Shown piece after piece: positions 1 through 10,045 of a stretch of 38,899 bases of DNA. Each line of letters begins with the position of its first letter. Within the stretch, counting starts at the first letter, position 1. Position numbers and translations under genes: made by a program. Source of the DNA: Desulfonauticus submarinus (GTDB lineage: Bacteria; Desulfobacterota; Desulfovibrionia; Desulfovibrionales; Desulfonatronovibrionaceae); assembly GCF_900104045.1 (NCBI RefSeq), contig NZ_FNIN01000016.1:1-38899 (forward strand), read 5' to 3'. The notes beneath the pieces are model-generated. The model saw only the letters and a program-made list of their open reading frames with translations, was not told the origin of the DNA and searched no databases.

Positions 1-151
1 CCTTTGCTGCCCCTTCATTAATCATCCCCGCTCCCTCTCCCTTAGGAGCCTGCGCTATCGCTTCACCTAACCTGTCCGCTAACGCAGGATGACTAATTAA
101 AAACAATAAGCCTAAAACCAAAAAACTAAAAAACACCCATCTCTTTTTCAC
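1..151 (-). CDS. Exported or membrane protein, N-terminus only (cut by window edge)
   Basis: About 50 codons are visible; the gene runs off the left edge. The proposed start is GTG at 149-151, with a strong Shine-Dalgarno (AAGGAGGG, minus strand, 157-164) six bases upstream. The product starts with Lys-Lys-Arg, then a long hydrophobic run and an Ala-Leu-Ala-type cleavage site near residue 25, which is a typical Sec signal peptide. A short Gly/Ala/Glu-rich mature segment follows. The N-terminus resembles my memory of Desulfovibrionales TauE/SafE-type permeases, which carry such a leader, but too little is present to claim this. It is probably co-transcribed with the 40-residue ORF just upstream (gap 26 bp). 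Confidence 0.6.
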   Translation of the reverse strand, partial: MKKRWVFFSFLVLGLLFLISHPALADRLGEAIAQAPKGEGAGMINEGAAK

Positions 152-357: not shown

Positions 358-375
358 TGCAATAAATTTATTGCA
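358..375. promoter_or_regulatory. Perfect 18-bp palindrome, probable activator binding site
   Basis: TGCAATAAATTTATTGCA is its own reverse complement. It lies in the divergent intergenic region, 58 bp upstream of the 40-residue ORF and about 148 bp (centre) upstream of the -24 element of the sigma-54 promoter at 513-528. Enhancer-binding proteins of the NtrC family commonly bind TGC...GCA inverted repeats 100-200 bp upstream. The nearby sigma-54 response regulator is the natural candidate ligand, which is inference. Confidence 0.55.
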
Positions 376-512
376 TGAGTTGAAAAAATTAGGTCTTCCT
401 TATTTTTTTACTTCTAAATTGAATAACAAAAAGACAAAAAAATATTGCGACTACACCTTTCAAAAAATAAAAAAAGCTATGTATAACCTGGATATTATCT
501 AACTTTTTAAAA

Positions 513-528
513 TGGCACCTTTTTTGCT
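513..528 (+). promoter_or_regulatory. Sigma-54 (-24/-12) promoter of the DUF169 gene
   Basis: TGGCAC (513-518), five bases, then TTGCT (524-528) matches the sigma-54 consensus TGGCAC-N5-TTGCA at all but the last position. GG (514-515) and GC (526-527) have the required spacing. The expected start of transcription is near 539, giving a leader of about 58 nt before the DUF169 ATG at 597. A sigma-54-dependent response regulator is encoded 3 kb downstream. Confidence 0.75.
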
Positions 529-596
529 GAGGGCAAGCTTGCTTAAGCTCCGTTTATTTTAGGAGCAAAAAACAAAAAAATATTGTGGAGGAACAG

Positions 597-1370
597 ATGG
601 AGTACAGTAAAGTACGAGAGCAACTTATTTGGAATCTTCGTTTGGACTTTGATCCTGTAGGCATCACCTTTGTGTATGATGAATCTCTTGAGTCCAGCTT
701 ACCTATCACTCACCGAGCCAAAGTTAAAATTACCTACTGCCAATTTTTAACTGCTGCACGCCAAAACAGAATGGCATTTTACATGAAACCAGAGAAACTT
801 TTATGTCAAAATGCCTGGCCAGTATTTAATTTTAGAGACTTAGAACAAGAAGCTGATACCAAACGGCATCTCAAGTATTTAATCGACAAAGACCTTGCTT
901 GGGAAGCTGTTCAACAAAAAGCTCGTTTGGAAAAAGGCTGTAAAGGTATTTATATGGCTCCAATTGACTTTTTTGATAAAGCAGAGATTAAACCAGATCT
1001 CTTATTTATGATTTGTACGCCATATCAGGCTTATCATATCTTAAATGATTACATGGGCGGCATGAAAAAACCTAACCTTTCCTTTTTCCATACCCCCAAC
1101 TCTGCAGTATGTTCAGGTAGTGTTTGGGCCTTTAACAATAACACAGCTAATATGACTACAATGTGTGCTGGCTCTAAAACATCAGGAAAAACAGAGATGG
1201 CATACCTTAATGTTTTTATCCCTGGCAAACACATAGAACCATTTATAACACAACAACAAAAACGCGTTGCTATGGGAGAAGGAGCATCTTTATTAGGTAA
1301 AGGATCTCAACCTTGGCCAGGACTTGATGTATGTAAAGGATGCCCTTTATTTAAATTTGAAGCAGTTTAA
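597..1370 (+). CDS. DUF169 family protein
   Basis: A 257-residue soluble protein without signal peptide or membrane segment. It matches the DUF169 family (PF02596) found widely in sulfate reducers, methanogens and other anaerobes; the molecular function is not established. Cysteines are spread through the protein (for example the Tyr-Cys-Gln motif near residue 48 and a Cys-x2-Cys close to the C-terminus, Cys-Lys-Gly-Cys-Pro), so metal or cofactor binding is possible but unproven. An in-frame GTG lies 12 bases upstream at 585, but GGAGG at 587-591 is correctly spaced (5 bases) only for the ATG at 597, so I chose that start. The gene has its own sigma-54 promoter and is followed by a hairpin terminator, so it appears to be a single-gene unit beside the two-component genes. 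Confidence 0.88.
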   Translation: MEYSKVREQLIWNLRLDFDPVGITFVYDESLESSLPITHRAKVKITYCQFLTAARQNRMAFYMKPEKLLCQNAWPVFNFRDLEQEADTKRHLKYLIDKDLAWEAVQQKARLEKGCKGIYMAPIDFFDKAEIKPDLLFMICTPYQAYHILNDYMGGMKKPNLSFFHTPNSAVCSGSVWAFNNNTANMTTMCAGSKTSGKTEMAYLNVFIPGKHIEPFITQQQKRVAMGEGASLLGKGSQPWPGLDVCKGCPLFKFEAV

Positions 1371-1394
1371 CCAACTGTTTTTAACCACTCACCA

Positions 1395-1425
1395 AGAGAG
1401 TTTGGATTTTATCCAAACTCTCTTT
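1395..1425 (+). terminator. Hairpin terminator after the DUF169 gene
   Basis: A perfect 13-bp stem (1395-1407 with 1411-1423) around a TTT loop begins 25 bp after the DUF169 stop codon. The 3' arm is T/C-rich and is followed by only a short T run, so termination may be partial. The -35 element of the next putative promoter begins right at the foot of this hairpin. Confidence 0.65.
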
Positions 1426-1452
1426 GACTTAACTCCAAATGGATACTATGGT
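1424..1452 (+). promoter_or_regulatory. Candidate sigma-70 promoter for the sensor/kinase operon
   Basis: TTGACT (1424-1429, 5 of 6 matches to the -35 consensus), a 17-bp spacer and TATGGT (1447-1452, 4 of 6 matches to the -10) lie between the DUF169 terminator and the ATG at 1486. The predicted transcript start is near 1459. This is a motif match only. Confidence 0.4.
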
Positions 1453-1485: not shown

Positions 1486-1941
1486 ATGTTGAAATTATTA
1501 TATTTTTTTACCTCAATTTTAATTTTACTAATCAATCCTAAGCTTTGCTTGGCCACCCAAGTTCATTCTCACCCAGAAGGTTTGTATGTACACCAGTTAG
1601 CGCATTTCTTTTTTATTTTATCTATGGTCACTTTAATTTATTGGCTAAAAAAGAGAAATCTTTATCGAGAAAAAGGTTGGAGATATCTTAAATACAGTGC
1701 TCTTTGTTTTATTATTTGGAATATAGATGCTATTTTAGCCCATTATTTGGAGAATCAAAATTTTTTTATTATTAAAAATGCTGGAAGCTTAGAAGCAGTA
1801 TTGGTCTCTCTACCTGGATATGAACTACATACCCTTATTTTTTATTTTGCTAAAATGGATCATATATTTTGTGTCCCTGGTATACTCTTTTTATACTTTG
1901 CTTTACGTTGTTTTATAGATAAGGCGAGAGAACTAAAATGA
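1486..1941 (+). CDS. Histidine-rich small membrane protein, probable sensor partner
   Basis: A 151-residue protein. The open frame extends upstream into the DUF169 gene, but the part before residue 1 here has no protein-like features; ATG at 1486 is followed at once by a signal-peptide-like hydrophobic run (residues 5-22). GTG at 1477 is an alternative start. After the signal comes a His-rich stretch (His27, His29, His36, His40), then about three transmembrane segments (roughly 38-54, 68-86, 127-144), with further histidines at 86, 115 and 126 near helix ends. This arrangement could bind haem or metal, but no known motif proves it. The stop codon overlaps the kinase start (ATGA), so translation is coupled and a joint sensory role is likely. 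I do not recognise a named family. Confidence 0.72.
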   Translation: MLKLLYFFTSILILLINPKLCLATQVHSHPEGLYVHQLAHFFFILSMVTLIYWLKKRNLYREKGWRYLKYSALCFIIWNIDAILAHYLENQNFFIIKNAGSLEAVLVSLPGYELHTLIFYFAKMDHIFCVPGILFLYFALRCFIDKARELK

Positions 1942-3452
1942 CTTTACCAATGCTCCCAATATGGACCGTAGATTTCGTTGGTTCTTCTTTAATGATAGTT
2001 ATCTCATTTTTATGTGTATACATGGCTGTTTATCTATTTCTGCAAGATAAAGAAAATGCTGTATGGATATATTTTCTATGGATTACAAGTGGTCTTGCTT
2101 TTTTTGCTCTTTCAAGAGGAATTGGTCATATTGCAAAAGACTTATTAATTGTAAGTGGACATACAGATATATGGAAAAAATTACGACCATATAGTGGAGC
2201 ATTTAATACTATAACATTTATTTTAGTAGCATCTATTACTCTATTCTTTGAAAGGATATGGAAAATTTACCAAACAATTATAAGAGATAAACAAGCTCTA
2301 CAAAAAAGTCATGAACAAATTCTATATCTAAATAAACATTTAGAAGATTTGGTTGCTGAAAGAACTCTTAAACTAAAATCTTCTGAAAAAAAATATCGGC
2401 GTATCTTTGAATCTTCTAGGGATATGATTGTCGTAACTGATAAAAAAGGACTTATTCTAGAGCTAAATACGGCAGGCAGTTCTCTCTTGGGATTAGCAAA
2501 AGAAAACCTACTTCAAAAAAAACATTATTTGAAATCTTTTTTTGCTCATGATTCAGACTGGGACAAAATTGTCACCCAACTTCTTAATCAGGGCTATATA
2601 AATGATATTGAAACTGAACTAGTAAGTCCGGTAAAAAAAAATATTCGCTATGTACTTTTAAACGGTACAGTAGAATACTTTGAAGAAAAAGAAAAAAACT
2701 CTAATTTAAAAGAAATTTTTCACTTTTTAGTAAAAGATATTACTAGAAGAAAAACAATGGAACAACAGCTATTACAAGCAGATAAATTAGCATCTATCGG
2801 GAAGTTAGCTGCTGGAGTAGCTCATGAAATCAATAATCCTCTAAATATTATTCTAGGTTACACCCAACTTTTATTAAAACATGAGCAAAAAGGAACTCAA
2901 AAATATGAAGACTTACGTATAATTGAAAAACATGTATGTGCTTGCAGAAATATAGTTAACGACCTCTTAAAATTTTCTAGAAGATCAAAAACTCAAAAAC
3001 AATTTATTAATTTAAACGAGCTTATAAAAGAAGTTATAAAAGTTGCTTCACAACAATTTGAATTTGATAGAATTAAAATAGAAACTAACTATGATCCAAA
3101 TGTCCCTTCTATGGTTCTAGATGGAGATAAAATAAAACAAGTGTTTATGAATATATTTATGAACGCTAAAGATGCTATTGGAGAAGATGGCAAAATTACA
3201 ATATCAACAAATTACCTTGAAAAGAAGCATACTGTGGAGATAAAAATTCAAGATACAGGATGTGGGATAGAACCTCATCACATTTCAAAAATATTTGATC
3301 CTTTTTTTACCACTAAAGAAACAGGAAAAGGAACGGGTTTAGGCCTTTCTGTAAGCTATGGAATAATTAAAGAACATGATGGAGATATAAAAGTATTTAG
3401 CAAGGTAGGCCAGGGAACCACTTTCTTAATAACCTTACCAATAAGAGAGTAA
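1938..3452 (+). CDS. Membrane-bound PAS sensor histidine kinase
   Basis: A 504-residue kinase. The N-terminus has about three transmembrane helices (residues 13-35, 41-59, 92-105) with His64 and His75 between the second and third. A coiled-coil linker (about 112-150), a PAS domain (about 152-270), and a HisKA domain follow; the phosphoacceptor His296 sits in Ala-His-Glu-Ile-Asn-Asn-Pro. The ATP-binding domain is complete, with an N-box (Asn-Ala-Lys-Asp-Ala), Asp-Thr-Gly-Cys-Gly-Ile, and a Gly-Thr-Gly-Leu-Gly-Leu G2 box. By family it autophosphorylates on His296 and passes phosphate to the response regulator encoded 2 bp downstream. Overlap with the preceding His-rich membrane protein suggests the two form one receptor. 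The signal is unknown; the neighbouring hydrogenase operon suggests redox or hydrogen status, which is inference. Confidence 0.9.
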   Translation: MTLPMLPIWTVDFVGSSLMIVISFLCVYMAVYLFLQDKENAVWIYFLWITSGLAFFALSRGIGHIAKDLLIVSGHTDIWKKLRPYSGAFNTITFILVASITLFFERIWKIYQTIIRDKQALQKSHEQILYLNKHLEDLVAERTLKLKSSEKKYRRIFESSRDMIVVTDKKGLILELNTAGSSLLGLAKENLLQKKHYLKSFFAHDSDWDKIVTQLLNQGYINDIETELVSPVKKNIRYVLLNGTVEYFEEKEKNSNLKEIFHFLVKDITRRKTMEQQLLQADKLASIGKLAAGVAHEINNPLNIILGYTQLLLKHEQKGTQKYEDLRIIEKHVCACRNIVNDLLKFSRRSKTQKQFINLNELIKEVIKVASQQFEFDRIKIETNYDPNVPSMVLDGDKIKQVFMNIFMNAKDAIGEDGKITISTNYLEKKHTVEIKIQDTGCGIEPHHISKIFDPFFTTKETGKGTGLGLSVSYGIIKEHDGDIKVFSKVGQGTTFLITLPIRE

Positions 3453-3454
3453 TT

Positions 3455-4855
3455 ATGGTAAGAGAACGTATTTTAATTGTAGATGACGAACCAGACCTTC
3501 TAAGATTGTTAAAAAGAAGCTTAGAAGAAGATTTGCAATGTATTATTGAAACTGCTCTATCAGGAGAAGAAGCCTTAAATATTTTATCTCAAAAAAGCAT
3601 GGATGTTGTCCTCATAGATATGAAAATGCCTGGGATGAGTGGTTTAGAACTCTTACAATTTATTCTAGAAGATCACCCATGGATGACCATAGTAATGATG
3701 ACTGCCCATGGTTGCATTGAGCTGGCTGTAGAAGCAATAAAAAGTGGTGCATACGATTTCATTACCAAACCTTTTGATACAGAAACTATTTCCTTCACTT
3801 TGCAAAAAGCCTTAGAAAGAAGCAGATTGCTTAGAGAAAATTTACGTCTGCAAAAAGATATTCGGACATGCACCTCTTTTCAAGATATTGTTGGTACCAG
3901 CCCCAAAATGAAAAGAATCTATGAGCTTATTCAAACAGTTGCCACAACAGATATAACTGTATTGATTACTGGGGAATCAGGTACAGGAAAAGACTTAGTT
4001 GCACGGGCAATACACTCCCTAAGCAAAAGAAAAGATTTTCCTTTTGTAGCAGTAAATTGTCCAACTGTTCCTGAACACATCTTGGAAAGTGAGCTGTTTG
4101 GATATAAAAAAGGAGCTTTTACTCACGCTACCCAAAATAAAATTGGTCTTTTTCAAGAAGCTCACAAGGGCACTATCTTTTTAGATGAAATAGGAGATAT
4201 AAGCGCTAATATCCAAACTAAATTACTTAGAGTTCTCCAAGAAAAAACCATTAAACCATTAGGAGATACTAAAACTATTAGTGTGGATGTAAGGGTTATT
4301 GCTTCTACTAACAGGAATTTACAAGAAGCTATAAAACAAGGCAAATTTAGAGAAGACCTTTATTACAGACTAAACGTTATTCCTATAGAATTGCCCCCTT
4401 TAAGGGAACGAAAAGAAGATATTCCTCTTTTAGTAAACCATTTTTTAAAAAAACACGGACAAGAACTAAATAGACCTAATAAACGCCTTTCCCCTGAACT
4501 TATGGAAATTTTTCTCGAAAACGACTGGGAAGGAAATGTTAGAGAACTAGAAAATATTGTTATAAGAGGAATATTATTTGCCCCTGAAGAGGAAATACGT
4601 CCTGAACACATCGGCTTAAAACCATATAAAAACCCAAATATATCACCAGAACTAAATTTAATTCCCAATTTACCTTATAAAAAAGCTAAAGAATATATTT
4701 TAAAAAAATTTCATAAATTATACTTAGGAAAATTACTTAAAGAAACAGGAGGAAACGTTACTCAAGCAGCAAGAAATTGTGGTCTCGAAAGACAAGCCCT
4801 TCAGCAAATTATGAAAAGATATAATATAACTGCAAAACCTTTCAGAAAAAAATAA
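3455..4855 (+). CDS. Sigma-54-dependent response regulator (NtrC family)
   Basis: A 466-residue, three-domain activator. The receiver domain (about 1-125) has acidic Asp10/Asp11, phosphoacceptor Asp55, Thr83 and Lys105. The AAA+ domain (about 144-375) has Walker A Gly-Glu-Ser-Gly-Thr-Gly-Lys (173-179), Walker B (241-246) and the sigma-54 contact loop at 220-225, which reads Gly-Ala-Phe-Thr-His-Ala instead of the usual GAFTGA. A Fis-type helix-turn-helix lies at about 440-462. It is a cognate pair with the kinase just upstream. A sigma-54 promoter exists in this window in front of the DUF169 gene, with a palindrome upstream that could be its binding site. None was seen directly before the ech operon, which follows after 45 bp with no terminator between. 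Confidence 0.93.
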   Translation: MVRERILIVDDEPDLLRLLKRSLEEDLQCIIETALSGEEALNILSQKSMDVVLIDMKMPGMSGLELLQFILEDHPWMTIVMMTAHGCIELAVEAIKSGAYDFITKPFDTETISFTLQKALERSRLLRENLRLQKDIRTCTSFQDIVGTSPKMKRIYELIQTVATTDITVLITGESGTGKDLVARAIHSLSKRKDFPFVAVNCPTVPEHILESELFGYKKGAFTHATQNKIGLFQEAHKGTIFLDEIGDISANIQTKLLRVLQEKTIKPLGDTKTISVDVRVIASTNRNLQEAIKQGKFREDLYYRLNVIPIELPPLRERKEDIPLLVNHFLKKHGQELNRPNKRLSPELMEIFLENDWEGNVRELENIVIRGILFAPEEEIRPEHIGLKPYKNPNISPELNLIPNLPYKKAKEYILKKFHKLYLGKLLKETGGNVTQAARNCGLERQALQQIMKRYNITAKPFRKK

Positions 4856-4900: not shown

Positions 4901-6817
4901 GTGAATTGGCCAAGTATTGCACTTTTATGTATTCTTATCCCAATAGGAACAGGCCTTTTAAGTTTGTTCTTAAACTCTTCATTTCCACGTAAAGTAGTAG
5001 TTATACTAAATTCTATTTTTCTATCAACACTATCTATACTACTCTACATAAAAGGACCGTTTCCCATAACTAATACATTTACAAAAATTAATAATTTTTA
5101 TGATTATCTTATATGTGGGTTGGATTTTTTACTATTATTTTATATTGTGTTTATTGGTACAAAATTAAAAAACAGAACAATCACTATAATGTCATCTATA
5201 CAAATAATAATTTTATTTCTTGTTGAAATTATACATAATAAATCTGATATATATCCTTTAGTAGCAGATAAGTTTTCTCTTATGATGATTTTAATAGTTT
5301 CAATTGTTGGGTCTATTATCACTATTTATGCCTTACAGTATATGAAAAGACATGAAGAACATTTACATCTAACTACTTCAAAACAAAATAAATTCTTCTT
5401 TTTTATGCTAATTTTTTTAGGAGCAATGAATGGCTTAATTCTAAGCAATAATTTACTTTGGATGTATTTTTTTTGGGAAGTTACTACTCTTTGCTCCTTC
5501 ATGCTAATAGGTCATGATGATACAGATGAGGCAAAAGCCAATGCCCAAAAAGCATTATGGATGAATCTTTTAGGGGGAGTTACCTTTATTTTGGGACTCT
5601 TTATCTTAGCTCTAAATCACCTTCCACTAGAGATAACTTTACTTCTTAACAGCAAAATTGGCAGCAGTATGTTGTTAGTAATGGCTTTACTTTGCATAGC
5701 TGGATTTACTAAATCTGCTCAAGTTCCATTTCAAAGTTGGCTCACAGGTGCAATGGTAGCTCCTACACCAGTATCTGCTCTTTTACACTCTTCGACTATG
5801 GTCAATGCTGGAGTATACCTTATCTTACGTCTAGCTCCTATTTATCAAAAAACACTCTTTTCTTCTTATCTTGCTTTCTTAGGTGCATTTACCTTTATTG
5901 CAACTTCCATTTTAGCTCTTAGCCAAAAGAATGGGAAAAAAATTCTTGCCTACTCCACTATTGGAAATTTGGGAATGATTGTAGCTTGTGCAGGAATAGG
6001 ATCTCCTGCAGCTATTGGAGCTGGGATCCTACTTATTCTCTTTCATGCTGTTTCTAAAGGACTTTTATTCATGGGTATGGGTTATATAGAACAAAACATA
6101 GGAAGCAGAATAATCGAAGATATGCGTGGACTTTACTTGAAAATGCCTAAAACAACTTTAATTATGGCATTTGGCATGCTTACCATGTTTCTCCCTCCTT
6201 TTGGAGCTCTTTTAAGTAAGTGGATGATAATAGAAGCTTCTTCTAAAAATCCAATGGTAGTAATTATGTTGGCCCTAGGAAGTGCTTTTACAGTGGTGTT
6301 TTGGGCTCGTTGGGCAGGCCTTATTTTATGCCACACTAAAAACAAAAAACCTTCTCAAGAAATACTTCCTCTTTTTATAAGGTTAAGTTTTTTCCCTTTA
6401 GCCTTACTTATTGCACTATTAAGTATTTTGGTTTTACCAATTTACTCTAATATAATTGTTCCAACATTAAAACTATATTATAAAACGATATCATATTCCC
6501 TTCTTCAAGGAGGATTTAATAGTGAAGTAGGAGCATTTTCTATTTATCCTTTATTCTTATTTTTTATCATAGCCACAATTTGGACAATTCATGTTATTAA
6601 AAAATACAGTAAACGTACCTATGTAAATCCTTATATGTCTGGAATAGAGGAAATTCAAAACGATAATTATGGACATTTAGGACCATTAAATCAATTTGTT
6701 AAATTTACTGCTGGTAATTTTTATCTATTAGAATATTTAGGAGAAGAAAAATTAATGCTTGGTATTAACATCATTGCAATTGGAACAATTATAGTAAGCA
6801 TTGCAGGTGTTTTTTAA
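4901..6817 (+). CDS. echA: Ech hydrogenase subunit A, NuoL/Mrp-type antiporter subunit
   Basis: A 638-residue, highly hydrophobic protein of the NuoL/MrpA proton-translocating family. The key charged residues of the half-channels are present: Glu193 in Phe-Phe-Trp-Glu-Val, and Lys271 in Phe-Thr-Lys-Ser-Ala-Gln-Val-Pro-Phe. The highly conserved block Leu-His-Ser-Ser-Thr-Met-Val-Asn-Ala-Gly-Val follows. It starts with GTG at 4901 behind a GGAGGAGG ribosome site. It is the first gene of a six-gene run in the order known for Ech hydrogenase, where this subunit couples ferredoxin-linked electron transfer to ion movement across the cytoplasmic membrane. Residue-level ion specificity (proton versus sodium) cannot be decided here. 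Confidence 0.93.
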   Translation: MNWPSIALLCILIPIGTGLLSLFLNSSFPRKVVVILNSIFLSTLSILLYIKGPFPITNTFTKINNFYDYLICGLDFLLLFYIVFIGTKLKNRTITIMSSIQIIILFLVEIIHNKSDIYPLVADKFSLMMILIVSIVGSIITIYALQYMKRHEEHLHLTTSKQNKFFFFMLIFLGAMNGLILSNNLLWMYFFWEVTTLCSFMLIGHDDTDEAKANAQKALWMNLLGGVTFILGLFILALNHLPLEITLLLNSKIGSSMLLVMALLCIAGFTKSAQVPFQSWLTGAMVAPTPVSALLHSSTMVNAGVYLILRLAPIYQKTLFSSYLAFLGAFTFIATSILALSQKNGKKILAYSTIGNLGMIVACAGIGSPAAIGAGILLILFHAVSKGLLFMGMGYIEQNIGSRIIEDMRGLYLKMPKTTLIMAFGMLTMFLPPFGALLSKWMIIEASSKNPMVVIMLALGSAFTVVFWARWAGLILCHTKNKKPSQEILPLFIRLSFFPLALLIALLSILVLPIYSNIIVPTLKLYYKTISYSLLQGGFNSEVGAFSIYPLFLFFIIATIWTIHVIKKYSKRTYVNPYMSGIEEIQNDNYGHLGPLNQFVKFTAGNFYLLEYLGEEKLMLGINIIAIGTIIVSIAGVF

Positions 6818-6833
6818 AAAAGAGGAGTGAAAA

Positions 6834-7703
6834 ATGTTTACAATACAAAATATCATTATAGCTATTCTTGCCATTATCATTGCTCCTTTATTAGGAGGAA
6901 TTATTGCGGGCATAGATCGTAAATTAACAGCTAAGCTTCAAGGACGCTATGGTCCTCCTATTCTTCAACCTTTTTATGATCTTTTAAAACTATTTGCCAA
7001 ACAAAAAATGGCTGTAAATAGTGTTCAAGTATTTTGTGCCTGGATGTACCTTATTTCTGCTATCAGCGCCCTTTTCTTATTTGCCTTAAAATCTGACTTA
7101 CTTATGATCTTTTTTGTTTTAACTATTGGTTCTGTATTTTTAACCATTGGCGCATCTGCAACCCCTTCTCCCTATAGCCAAATTGGAGCACAAAGGGAAC
7201 TTATTCAAATGCTTACCTATGAACCTCTATTAATTGTAGTATTTGTAAGCATTTATTTTGTGACTGGAAGTTTTAAAATAGACGCTATCTTAAACTATCC
7301 TAAACCCATTTTTTTAAGCTTACCACTTATCTATTTAGTCTTGGGCTTTGCCCTTACCATAAAGCTTAGAAAATCCCCCTTTGATATTTCTACTTCTCAT
7401 CACGGTCATCAAGAAATTGTTAAAGGCATCCTTACAGAATATTCTGGCCCTCATTTGGCTTTAATAGAATTAGGACATTGGTATGAAATTATTTTAGTTT
7501 TAGGAATTTGTGCTTTATTTTGGTCAACAAATATCTTTGGCCTTATAATTTTATTAGCCATAACTTATTTTGCTGAAGTCTTTGTTGATAACTTAGTTAG
7601 CAGAGCAACTTGGAGATGGATGTTAGGATATGTCTGGGGAGTGGGCATATCTTTAGCGCTTTTTAATATTGCATTTTTATATGCTAATAAATTTGTAAAC
7701 TAG
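6834..7703 (+). CDS. echB: Ech hydrogenase subunit B, NuoH-like membrane anchor
   Basis: A 289-residue integral membrane protein of the NuoH/HyfC/EchB family with about eight hydrophobic segments. The family's conserved loops are visible: Asp-Arg-Lys near residue 30 followed by Arg-Tyr-Gly-Pro-Pro; Gly-Ala-Gln-Arg-Glu-Leu; and Pro-Phe-Asp-Ile-Ser-Thr with a following Glu-Ile-Val and Glu-Tyr-Ser-Gly. This subunit joins the membrane arm to the peripheral NiFe arm. In quinone-linked relatives the site binds quinone; in Ech there is no quinone and it acts in coupling. It follows echA by 16 bp behind a GAGGAG ribosome site. Confidence 0.92.
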   Translation: MFTIQNIIIAILAIIIAPLLGGIIAGIDRKLTAKLQGRYGPPILQPFYDLLKLFAKQKMAVNSVQVFCAWMYLISAISALFLFALKSDLLMIFFVLTIGSVFLTIGASATPSPYSQIGAQRELIQMLTYEPLLIVVFVSIYFVTGSFKIDAILNYPKPIFLSLPLIYLVLGFALTIKLRKSPFDISTSHHGHQEIVKGILTEYSGPHLALIELGHWYEIILVLGICALFWSTNIFGLIILLAITYFAEVFVDNLVSRATWRWMLGYVWGVGISLALFNIAFLYANKFVN

Positions 7704-7722
7704 AGATAGAGGTGAAAAAACA

Positions 7723-8199
7723 ATGAGTATATTAAACAAAATATTACAAAAATCAAAAATAAAATCTCCCTGGCTCTTACATTATGACTGTAGCAGTTGT
7801 AATGGCTGTGATATAGAAATACTAGCCTGCCTAACTCCTATATATGATGTAGAGCGTTTTGGCATTATAAATACAGGAAACCCAAAACATGCTGATATTC
7901 TATTAGTTACAGGTGGTGTCAATAATAGAAATAAACATGTATTAAAAAATCTTTACAATCAAATGCCAGACCCAAAAGTTGTTGTTTCTGTGGGAAGTTG
8001 TGGGAATACTGGAGGTATATTCAAAGATGCGTACAATATTATAGGCGGAATAGATAAAGTTATTCCTGTTGATGTGTATGTCCCAGGTTGTCCGCCAAAA
8101 CCAGAGGCTATTATTGATGGCGTTGTTCAGGCTTTAGAAATTTTAGCTCAAAAAACAGCAAAACAAAACCAAAAGGTGGAGAAAGAAGATGTTGGATAA
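7723..8199 (+). CDS. echC: Ech hydrogenase small subunit C (NuoB-like, proximal [4Fe-4S])
   Basis: A 158-residue peripheral subunit. It carries the small-subunit cluster motif Cys-Ser-Ser-Cys-Asn-Gly-Cys-Asp-Ile-Glu (Cys23, Cys26, Cys29), then Gly-Ser-Cys-Gly-Asn-Thr-Gly-Gly and Pro-Gly-Cys-Pro-Pro-Lys-Pro-Glu, which together ligate one [4Fe-4S] cluster next to the NiFe site. It has no Tat signal and no extra ferredoxin domains, as expected for the short cytoplasmic group 4 small subunit. Its 3' end overlaps echD by 11 bp. Confidence 0.94.
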   Translation: MSILNKILQKSKIKSPWLLHYDCSSCNGCDIEILACLTPIYDVERFGIINTGNPKHADILLVTGGVNNRNKHVLKNLYNQMPDPKVVVSVGSCGNTGGIFKDAYNIIGGIDKVIPVDVYVPGCPPKPEAIIDGVVQALEILAQKTAKQNQKVEKEDVG

Positions 8200-8572
8200 A
8201 AACATAAAAAACCTTGCCCTAGAAAACCTCTTAGAAGAAGTAAAAAATCTAAAAGATCAAGGTTATAGATTAGTCACTTTTAGTGCAGTAGAAAGCGATA
8301 ATCATCTAGAAATTATCTATCATTTTGATAAAAACTTTCAGACTATTAACTTTAGAATTCTATTTCCTAAAGAAGAGCCTATTCAAAGTATATCAAAAAT
8401 TTATTTTTGCGCTTTTTTAATTGAAAATGAAATTCAAGATCACTTTGGGGTAAAATTCAAAGATTTAGTTCTAAGTTTTGAAGGACATCTCTATTTAGAC
8501 CAAAAAACAGATCTTAGAGCTCCTTATTGCTCAATGACAATAAAACAAGAAGATAATGGAGGTACAAACTAA
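8189..8572 (+). CDS. echD: Ech hydrogenase subunit D (NuoC-like)
   Basis: A 127-residue protein, about the usual EchD length and shorter than NuoC. It contains the NuoC-type block with Phe-x-Leu-Phe-Pro and a conserved acidic stretch before Asp-His-Phe-Gly-Val (residues about 88-92). It is a structural subunit of the peripheral arm and binds no cofactor. Identification rests partly on position, as sequence conservation in this family is low. It starts inside the end of echC and its stop codon shares a base with the echE start (TAATG), so the three subunits are translationally coupled. Confidence 0.88.
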   Translation: MLDKNIKNLALENLLEEVKNLKDQGYRLVTFSAVESDNHLEIIYHFDKNFQTINFRILFPKEEPIQSISKIYFCAFLIENEIQDHFGVKFKDLVLSFEGHLYLDQKTDLRAPYCSMTIKQEDNGGTN

Positions 8573-9648
8573 TGGCTCCTACAGTTATACCCTTTGGTCC
8601 GCAACATCCTGTATTACCAGAACCCATTCATCTAACTCTTACTACTAAAGATGAAGTGGTTACAGAGGCTACTCCTCAATTAGGTTATATTCATAGAGGA
8701 TTAGAAAAATTAGCAGACATAAAAGATTTCCATCAATTGGTACAAGTAGTAGAAAGAATTTGTGGCATTTGTAGTTGCATTCATGCTGCAACTTATGCCC
8801 AAGGCATAGAAGCACTCATGAATATAGAAATTCCTCCTAGGGCAGACTTTTTAAGAGTTATCTGGTCTGAGCTACACCGTATGCACAGCCATATGCTCTG
8901 GTTAGGTCTTTTTGCTGATGCCTTTGGATTTGAAAGCCTTTTTATGCAAACATGGCGTATTAGAGAAAAAATTATGGATATAATGGAAGCAACTGCAGGC
9001 AATAGAGTTATAATTTCTGTTAATGTGATTGGAGGAGTTAGACGAGATTTATCTTCTGAGCAATGTAATTGGATTTTAAAAGAACTTAAAGATGTAGAAA
9101 CAGAATTTCAAGAGTTAGAAAAGGTATTTTTTCAAGACTATTCTGTGGAAAAAAGAACAAAAGGTTTAGGTGTATTGTCTGCTGAAAAAGCCTACGAACT
9201 TGGTGCATGTGGTCCAACTTTACGTGGAAGTGGAGTGGCCCAAGATGTAAGACAAACAGGTTATCAGGCATATAAAGAACTAGAATTTGAGCCTATAGTA
9301 GAGCAAGATGGAGATTGTTATGCAAGATGTAAGGTAAGATTTAGAGAAGTGTTGCAGTCTATTGCTTTAATTAGGGAAGCCATATCCAAATTACCTGAAG
9401 GAGAAATTAAAGTAAAAGTAAAAGGTTATCCAGAAGGAGAAATAATAACTCGCAGTGAACAGCCTAGAGGTGAACTTATGTATTATATTAAAGCTTCTGG
9501 GAAAAAATTTTTAGATCGTCTAAGAATTAGAACACCAACCTTTGCTAACATCCCAGCCTTATTGGCAATGCTCCCAGGTACAGAATTAGCTAATGTTCCT
9601 GTAGTTGTTTTATCTATAGACCCTTGCATAAGTTGTACAGAAAGATAA
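8572..9648 (+). CDS. echE: Ech hydrogenase large catalytic subunit E, [NiFe] site
   Basis: A 358-residue NuoD-like catalytic subunit. Both NiFe-binding motifs are intact: Arg-Ile-Cys-Gly-Ile-Cys (Cys64, Cys67) and Asp-Pro-Cys-Ile-Ser-Cys-Thr-Glu-Arg at the extreme C-terminus (Cys352, Cys355). Four ligand cysteines separate a true hydrogenase from complex I, which lacks them. The protein ends three residues after Cys355, so there is no long C-terminal extension for a maturation protease, which is typical of Ech. By family it couples oxidation of reduced ferredoxin to proton reduction, or the reverse, with ion translocation. No hyp maturation genes lie in this window. Confidence 0.95.
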   Translation: MAPTVIPFGPQHPVLPEPIHLTLTTKDEVVTEATPQLGYIHRGLEKLADIKDFHQLVQVVERICGICSCIHAATYAQGIEALMNIEIPPRADFLRVIWSELHRMHSHMLWLGLFADAFGFESLFMQTWRIREKIMDIMEATAGNRVIISVNVIGGVRRDLSSEQCNWILKELKDVETEFQELEKVFFQDYSVEKRTKGLGVLSAEKAYELGACGPTLRGSGVAQDVRQTGYQAYKELEFEPIVEQDGDCYARCKVRFREVLQSIALIREAISKLPEGEIKVKVKGYPEGEIITRSEQPRGELMYYIKASGKKFLDRLRIRTPTFANIPALLAMLPGTELANVPVVVLSIDPCISCTER

Positions 9649-9703
9649 ACCATGATGAACTTTAAAATACATATTTTAATTTTAAAACAAAAAAGGGGTT
9701 AAT

Positions 9704-10045
9704 ATGTTAAACTTCACTCCAACAATTTTAAAAAATTTACTTTCTAAAAGTTCTACTAGACTTTATCCCTTTGAAACAAGAGAGCCATTTAAAAATGTTA
9801 GAGGCGAGTTAAAAATTAACATAGAAGAGTGTAAGCTTTGCGGTATATGCGCGAAAAAATGTCCAGTAAATTGTATAAAAGTAGATAAAAAAACAGGTCT
9901 TTGGGAGGTAAATCCTTTTGAATGTGTATATTGTGGAATATGTGTAGATAATTGCCCAACCAATTGCTTATATTTCAAATCCGAATACCAAACTCCTAAC
10001 CAAACAAAACATTTAAAAACATTTCATAAAATTGAAAAAAATTAA
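9704..10045 (+). CDS. echF: Ech hydrogenase ferredoxin-like subunit F, two [4Fe-4S]
   Basis: A 113-residue NuoI-like electron-transfer subunit. There are two Cys-x2-Cys-x2-Cys-x3-Cys-Pro motifs: Cys43, Cys46, Cys49, Cys53 and Cys74, Cys77, Cys80, Cys84. Each has an extra cysteine four residues further (Cys57, Cys88). It accepts electrons from soluble ferredoxin and passes them to the cluster in EchC. It is separated from echE by 55 bp, the widest gap in the operon, which holds an AT-rich inverted repeat (9662-9679); the start has an AGGGG ribosome site. Confidence 0.94.
   Translation: MLNFTPTILKNLLSKSSTRLYPFETREPFKNVRGELKINIEECKLCGICAKKCPVNCIKVDKKTGLWEVNPFECVYCGICVDNCPTNCLYFKSEYQTPNQTKHLKTFHKIEKN

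Follow-up and report, generated by a model that had tools for sequence, protein, structure and literature searches.

A predicted bidirectional sigma-54 control region, conserved with its neighbouring response regulator, between TauE/SafE permease and DUF169 genes of Desulfonauticus submarinus

Introduction

A described counterpart of the present locus comes from Desulfovibrio alaskensis G20, in which a DUF169 gene (Dde_0597) and a TauE gene (Dde_0598) are clustered with a histidine kinase and a regulator (PMC4001038). Mutants in either of the two genes are nitrate resistant, and mutants of the cluster were reported to be mildly impaired on thiosulfate, the authors suggesting a leaky thiosulfate transporter (PMC4001038). 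Permeases of the TSUP/TauE type are abundant in sulfate reducers and are not assignable from sequence (PMC5840216). For the enhancer-binding proteins of D. vulgaris, GAFTHA has been listed as a variant of the sigma-54 contact loop that is expected to keep activity, and it is found in that list only in DVU2894, a single-component flagellar regulator (PMC4641369).

In the present study, we analyzed a stretch of 38,899 nucleotides from Desulfonauticus submarinus (hereafter the window), for which an earlier note had proposed a one-way sigma-54 promoter with an upstream palindrome, forming a regulon dedicated to DUF169 and linked to the adjacent Ech hydrogenase. The features on which the argument depends are as follows.

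1-151, minus strand: TauE/SafE-family permease gene, 5' part only (truncated by the contig end), with a GTG start at 151
245-230, minus strand: divergent sigma-54 -24/-12 site facing TauE, TGGTACATAGTTTGCT, 1 mismatch
339-356, no strand: weak second dyad, CGCAAAAACTTTCTTTCA, 8 of 12 positions, 19 bp from the main dyad
358-375, no strand: perfect palindrome, TGCAATAAATTTATTGCA, a genome-unique, conserved motif and putative response-regulator binding site (UAS/enhancer)
513-528, plus strand: sigma-54 -24/-12 site of DUF169, TGGCACCTTTTTTGCT, 0 mismatches to TGGCAC-N5-TTGCW
597-1370, plus strand: DUF169 (PF02596) gene, with seven invariant cysteines
1394-1427, plus strand: strong terminator-like hairpin 3' of DUF169 (-19.9 kcal/mol, z -5.9)
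1486-1941, plus strand: small membrane protein, predicted kinase partner, with invariant histidines 27, 36, 40 and 86
1938-3452, plus strand: membrane PAS histidine kinase
3455-4855, plus strand: NtrC-family response regulator and putative activator, with a receiver, an AAA+ sigma-54 activator domain carrying a GAFTHA loop, and a Fis-type HTH

Results

The 430-base gap between the predicted sulfur-anion permease gene and the DUF169 gene holds two back-to-back candidate sigma-54 promoters that flank one palindrome. Sites were judged by GG-N10-GC together with TGGCAC-N5-TTGCW, with the reversed pattern as control; all genome-wide scans were pattern searches. The 2.1-Mb genome has three perfect TGGCAC-N5-TTGCW sites (reversed pattern, 0) and, with at most one mismatch, 59 against 8 for the reversed pattern. 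Dinucleotide shuffling of 154-584 (5,000 shuffles) produced a perfect site in 0.04% of the sequences, and in none of them two sites at no more than one mismatch, as observed. The genome also encodes rpoN (TIGR02395, 469.9 bits; cut-off 277), and an IHF consensus, sought in the window between the dyad and the promoters, was not found. The position previously given for the site at 513-528 is exact, and its reading as a predicted promoter of DUF169 is supported by the -24/-12 match, by rpoN and by conservation in relatives.

The palindrome, TGCAAT-N6-ATTGCA, is the only occurrence of this motif in the whole genome, and close variants sought elsewhere in the genome yielded none that was credible. 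By chance alone it is weak: a palindrome as long arose in 1.6% of the shuffles of 154-584, as would be expected if AT-rich intergenic DNA had simply yielded a palindrome and a sigma-54 look-alike. That explanation has next to no probability in our judgment, for phylogenetic conservation and enrichment stand against it and the independent test on new loci given below contradicts it. The palindrome is believed because its position is kept in relatives and because it recurs at distant orthologous loci much more often than chance would allow; the 513-528 promoter is credible without conservation, the palindrome only with it.

Two genomes of the same family, G005 and G008, keep the gene order, with TauE on the minus strand and DUF169, membrane protein, kinase and regulator on the plus strand. 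Both carry TGGCAC-N5-TTGCT before DUF169, identical to the window at -24 and -12, and TGGCAT-N5-TTGCT before TauE (TGGCATATGATTTGCT in G008, TGGCATGTGATTTGCT in G005), and between both promoters lie two TGCAAT-N6-ATTGCA-like dyads 19 bp apart, with whose tandem copy the weak dyad at 339-356 aligns at the same 19-bp offset. By the terms of the earlier note, close relatives that kept the gene order and lacked the motif pair would have spoken against its proposal; the pair is present in both genomes, and the perfect 18-bp palindrome that the note had placed at enhancer distance is as described in the window and is conserved. Two genomes of the same genus have neither DUF169 nor a close orthologue of the regulator.

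Since a second, divergent sigma-54 site precedes TauE and the palindrome lies between both, 154-584 is, by its predicted elements, a real, conserved and functional-looking bidirectional sigma-54 control region. Of the one-way picture, sigma-54 and the neighbouring regulator stand, and what it missed is the divergent site at 245-230, the TauE start at 151 and the weaker dyad at 339-356. A regulon dedicated to DUF169 can no longer be upheld, as the conserved second promoter, for TauE, shares the same upstream site.

The TauE fragment in the window comprises only about 50 residues. It is 65% identical to the TauE of G005, which matches PF01925, and the orthologue in locus L096 scores 78.5 bits against PF01925 (cut-off 32.6). 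Positions 1-95 of the window recur unchanged in TauE genes lying at contig ends (C5, C6 and C18), and these three agree at 100% along 1,167 bp of TauE body (L261 1-1167, the end of L262 and the start of L260). Between C16, the contig of the window, and C18 the sequences upstream of TauE differ and the first codons are slightly different; apparently, two loci share one identical TauE body through recent duplication or gene conversion. The copy on C18 comes after complex-I-like genes and a 4Fe-4S protein. Additionally, TauE genes stand in tandem duplicate without the regulator in G004 and G007 (L183, L190, L191). The gene after TauE, labelled 'DUF106', has no match in Pfam or NCBIfam.

The most likely start codon of DUF169 is ATG 597, with GGAGG at 587-591. 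Hairpins occur at the matching place after DUF169 in G005 and G008, that is, in all three family genomes including the window; therefore DUF169 is probably transcribed separately, and the regulator genes probably from a different promoter. TTGACT after the hairpin could be the -35 element of such a promoter, and a sigma-70-like match at 1424-1452 is no better than chance. DUF169 has no sequence relative in the PDB. Comparison of its confidently predicted structure (pLDDT 87) with known folds brought up nothing clearly similar (lowest Foldseek E 0.8; highest VIA Z 5.0, with 154 residues superposed at 5.3 A rmsd), an outcome that does not establish a new fold. A defence role was considered for DUF169 and for the small membrane protein and discarded, with no PADLOC match.

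The response regulator scores above the cut-off for PF00072 and PF00158 and just under it for PF02954 (20.6 vs 22). GAFTHA is present in 60 of 63 regulator orthologues (the window plus 62 loci), and the other related regulators examined have GAFTGA or GSFTGA, so that in these sequences GAFTHA in place of GAFTGA is a mark of this regulator subfamily. The small membrane protein has no match in Pfam or NCBIfam, and the kinase has one invariant histidine within its membrane part; from the invariant histidines, redox, haem or metal sensing may be proposed for the pair.

Directly after the regulator gene, and only in this genome among those checked, lies a complete ech-type hydrogenase operon, echABCDEF (4901-10045). 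Its start, 46 bp past the regulator gene, makes co-transcription with the kinase and regulator genes possible, and such a shared transcript, together with a promoter and a regulator that are both real, would suit a one-way promoter whose dedicated DUF169 regulon is functionally tied to Ech. We nevertheless hold this reading to be very improbable: the second conserved promoter faces TauE, the ech operon is located elsewhere in G005, G008, G002 and G004, and distant orthologues have TauE and PhsA-like genes rather than hydrogenases as their targets. The tie to Ech proposed earlier thus fails on gene order in these four genomes, and the neighbourhood is probably an incidental, local link.

Regulator orthologues of approximately 55-70% identity occur across the phylum within a module of membrane protein, kinase and regulator. 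In a first set of loci with TauE beside this module (G217, G285, G382), the order was sigma-54 site (minus), dyad, sigma-54 site (plus). For an independent test with the motif fixed, a new set was drawn and 39 loci were fetched, 34 of which offered 600 bp or more of sequence upstream of TauE; not all of the 34 count as independent in phylogenetic terms. The dyad (at most 2 mismatches) was present in 29/34 of these regions and not recognisable in 5/34, and the full architecture of both sigma-54 sites with the dyad between them was found in 27/34. At no more than one mismatch, 25 dyads fell in 43 kb of TauE upstream regions against 2 in the other 477 kb. Enrichment appeared only at a spacer of 6 (25 matches; 0-4 for other spacers), and 179 other permutations of the half-site gave at most 2 matches; as this spacer and half-site alone are enriched, AT-richness is no explanation. 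Dyads paired at a spacer of 11 were mildly raised at 2 mismatches; at 1 mismatch such pairs were few and mostly overlaps with neighbouring half-sites.

It may be argued that the dyad serves some other regulator, a repressor or an enhancer-binding protein acting in trans, with the linked response regulator acting elsewhere. The genome does encode other NtrC-type regulators; close regulator orthologues without TauE in G265, G365, G383 and G218 have no dyad nearby; and in locus L061 the dyad occurs in a fetched stretch devoid of a regulator gene. We judge this unlikely, for the dyad tracks the presence of this regulator gene beside TauE, and TauE loci without the gene lack the dyad: 15 TauE clusters without the regulator had one weak dyad and no sigma-54 site at one mismatch or less. 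The co-occurrence of motif and regulator across many genomes favours the linked NtrC-type regulator as the likely activator, as had been suggested before.

In L061, where a DUF169 gene and TauE face each other, a perfect TGCAATTTTTATATTGCA (5907-5924) stands a short distance before DUF169, and no sigma-54 site is recognisable. Loci L132-L135 carry close regulator orthologues with neither TauE nor the dyad, and GltD-like and 2Fe-2S ferredoxin genes are near some of them (for example L133 and L135). Of the 4 matches to a composite dyad-to-promoter pattern across 395 genomes, two fall outside the TauE/regulator locus type, so that this class of dyad is not exclusive to the 3455-4855 regulator. 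One, in G073, precedes an unrelated gene; the other, in G130, precedes multihaem cytochrome genes beside another enhancer-binding protein gene and is probably used by a different regulator. The G130 site itself (L170 8900-9073) consists of TGCAAN8TTGCA and a sigma-54 site between these genes.

The gene facing TauE in many distant loci encodes a molybdopterin oxidoreductase with PhsA as its closest family, under the curated PhsA cut-off (598.7 vs 694 bits for a full-length example). In L231 a DUF169 gene occupies this slot, and PhsA is not in the D. submarinus locus.

Discussion

Observed here are both -24/-12 elements, the dyad, the conserved gene order, rpoN, and the co-occurrence of motif and regulator across many genomes. 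Taken together, these make it likely, on sequence grounds, that 154-584 is a two-way sigma-54 switch for TauE and DUF169, activated by the 3455-4855 regulator through the dyad. In such a scheme, the membrane protein and the kinase (1486-3452) would sense a signal, upon which the phosphorylated response regulator would bind the dyad at 358-375, helped by the weaker dyad 19 bp away, and would loop to activate RpoN-RNA polymerase at the two divergent promoters, that at 513-528 serving DUF169 and that at 245-230 serving the TauE/SafE permease. We infer both the binding of the regulator to the dyad and its activation of the two genes. Against the scheme count the five TauE upstream regions with no recognisable dyad, the regulator orthologues that have neither TauE nor dyad near them, the GAFTHA loop in place of GAFTGA, the sub-threshold PhsA scores and absence of PhsA from our locus, and the L061 dyad lacking a sigma-54 site. 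The mechanism would be an ordinary one; the regulon is apparently widespread and undescribed in the literature searched.

As to the signal, a sulfur oxyanion (thiosulfate or sulfite) or a linked redox state is suggested, because a PhsA-like gene stands at the divergent promoter in most other lineages and because the Desulfovibrio cluster of TauE and DUF169 has been linked to thiosulfate uptake (PMC4001038). For the signal that the earlier note left unknown, sulfur-oxyanion or redox conditions are thus putative candidates. More tentatively, and as a possibility that we doubt somewhat more than we credit, there may be a phylum-wide, undescribed two-component sigma-54 regulon for the import and reduction of a thiosulfate-like sulfur oxyanion, in which a histidine-rich, possibly haem- or metal-binding membrane sensor and a kinase act through one dyad on a TauE/SafE importer to one side and, to the other, on a PhsA-like reductase or, within the window's family, on the cysteine-rich DUF169 protein. 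If this were true, DUF169 would be a functional substitute or an accessory for the reductase step. A regulon common to TauE and PhsA-like reductases would point to the TauE substrate, which bears on thiosulfate and nitrate handling by sulfate reducers. Furthermore, DUF169 and the nitrate-linked TauE/SafE permease, two orphan families, become predicted targets of one regulator with a defined site.

Compared with known systems, the dyad resembles the NtrC binding site, TGCACC-N5-GGTGCA, in containing TGCA, in its length of about 17-18 bp and in its tandem use before sigma-54 promoters, but half-site and spacer are both different. PhsA thiosulfate reductase (PRK15488) is the family that the divergent gene matches best at several of the orthologous loci, but the score stays below the cut-off and DUF169 takes its place in the window's family. 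The two-component NtrC-family regulons of D. vulgaris (Kazakov et al. 2015, PMC4641369; Rajeev et al. 2011, PMC3333781) likewise combine an AAA+ response regulator gene beside a sigma-54 promoter, a small regulon, a palindromic upstream site and divergent targets; they differ in that DVU0247, DVU0251 and TauE targets are absent from the main text of both papers, TGCAA/TTGCA is absent from the text of PMC4641369 (motif figures excluded), and the GAFTHA loop of the window regulator occurs there only in DVU2894. The 'nitrate cluster' (Dde_0597-0605 / DVU0245-0251; PMC4001038) shares DUF169, the TauE/SafE permease, the histidine kinase and a response regulator with our locus, but it also has PtxB-like and PEP-dikinase-like genes, and no sigma-54 control is described there. 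Its regulator, judged by the published list, appears to differ from that at 3455-4855: the D. vulgaris counterpart, DVU0247, does not figure among the 37 enhancer-binding proteins published for that species (PMC4641369), and therefore the targets are shared with the nitrate cluster, the regulator apparently not.
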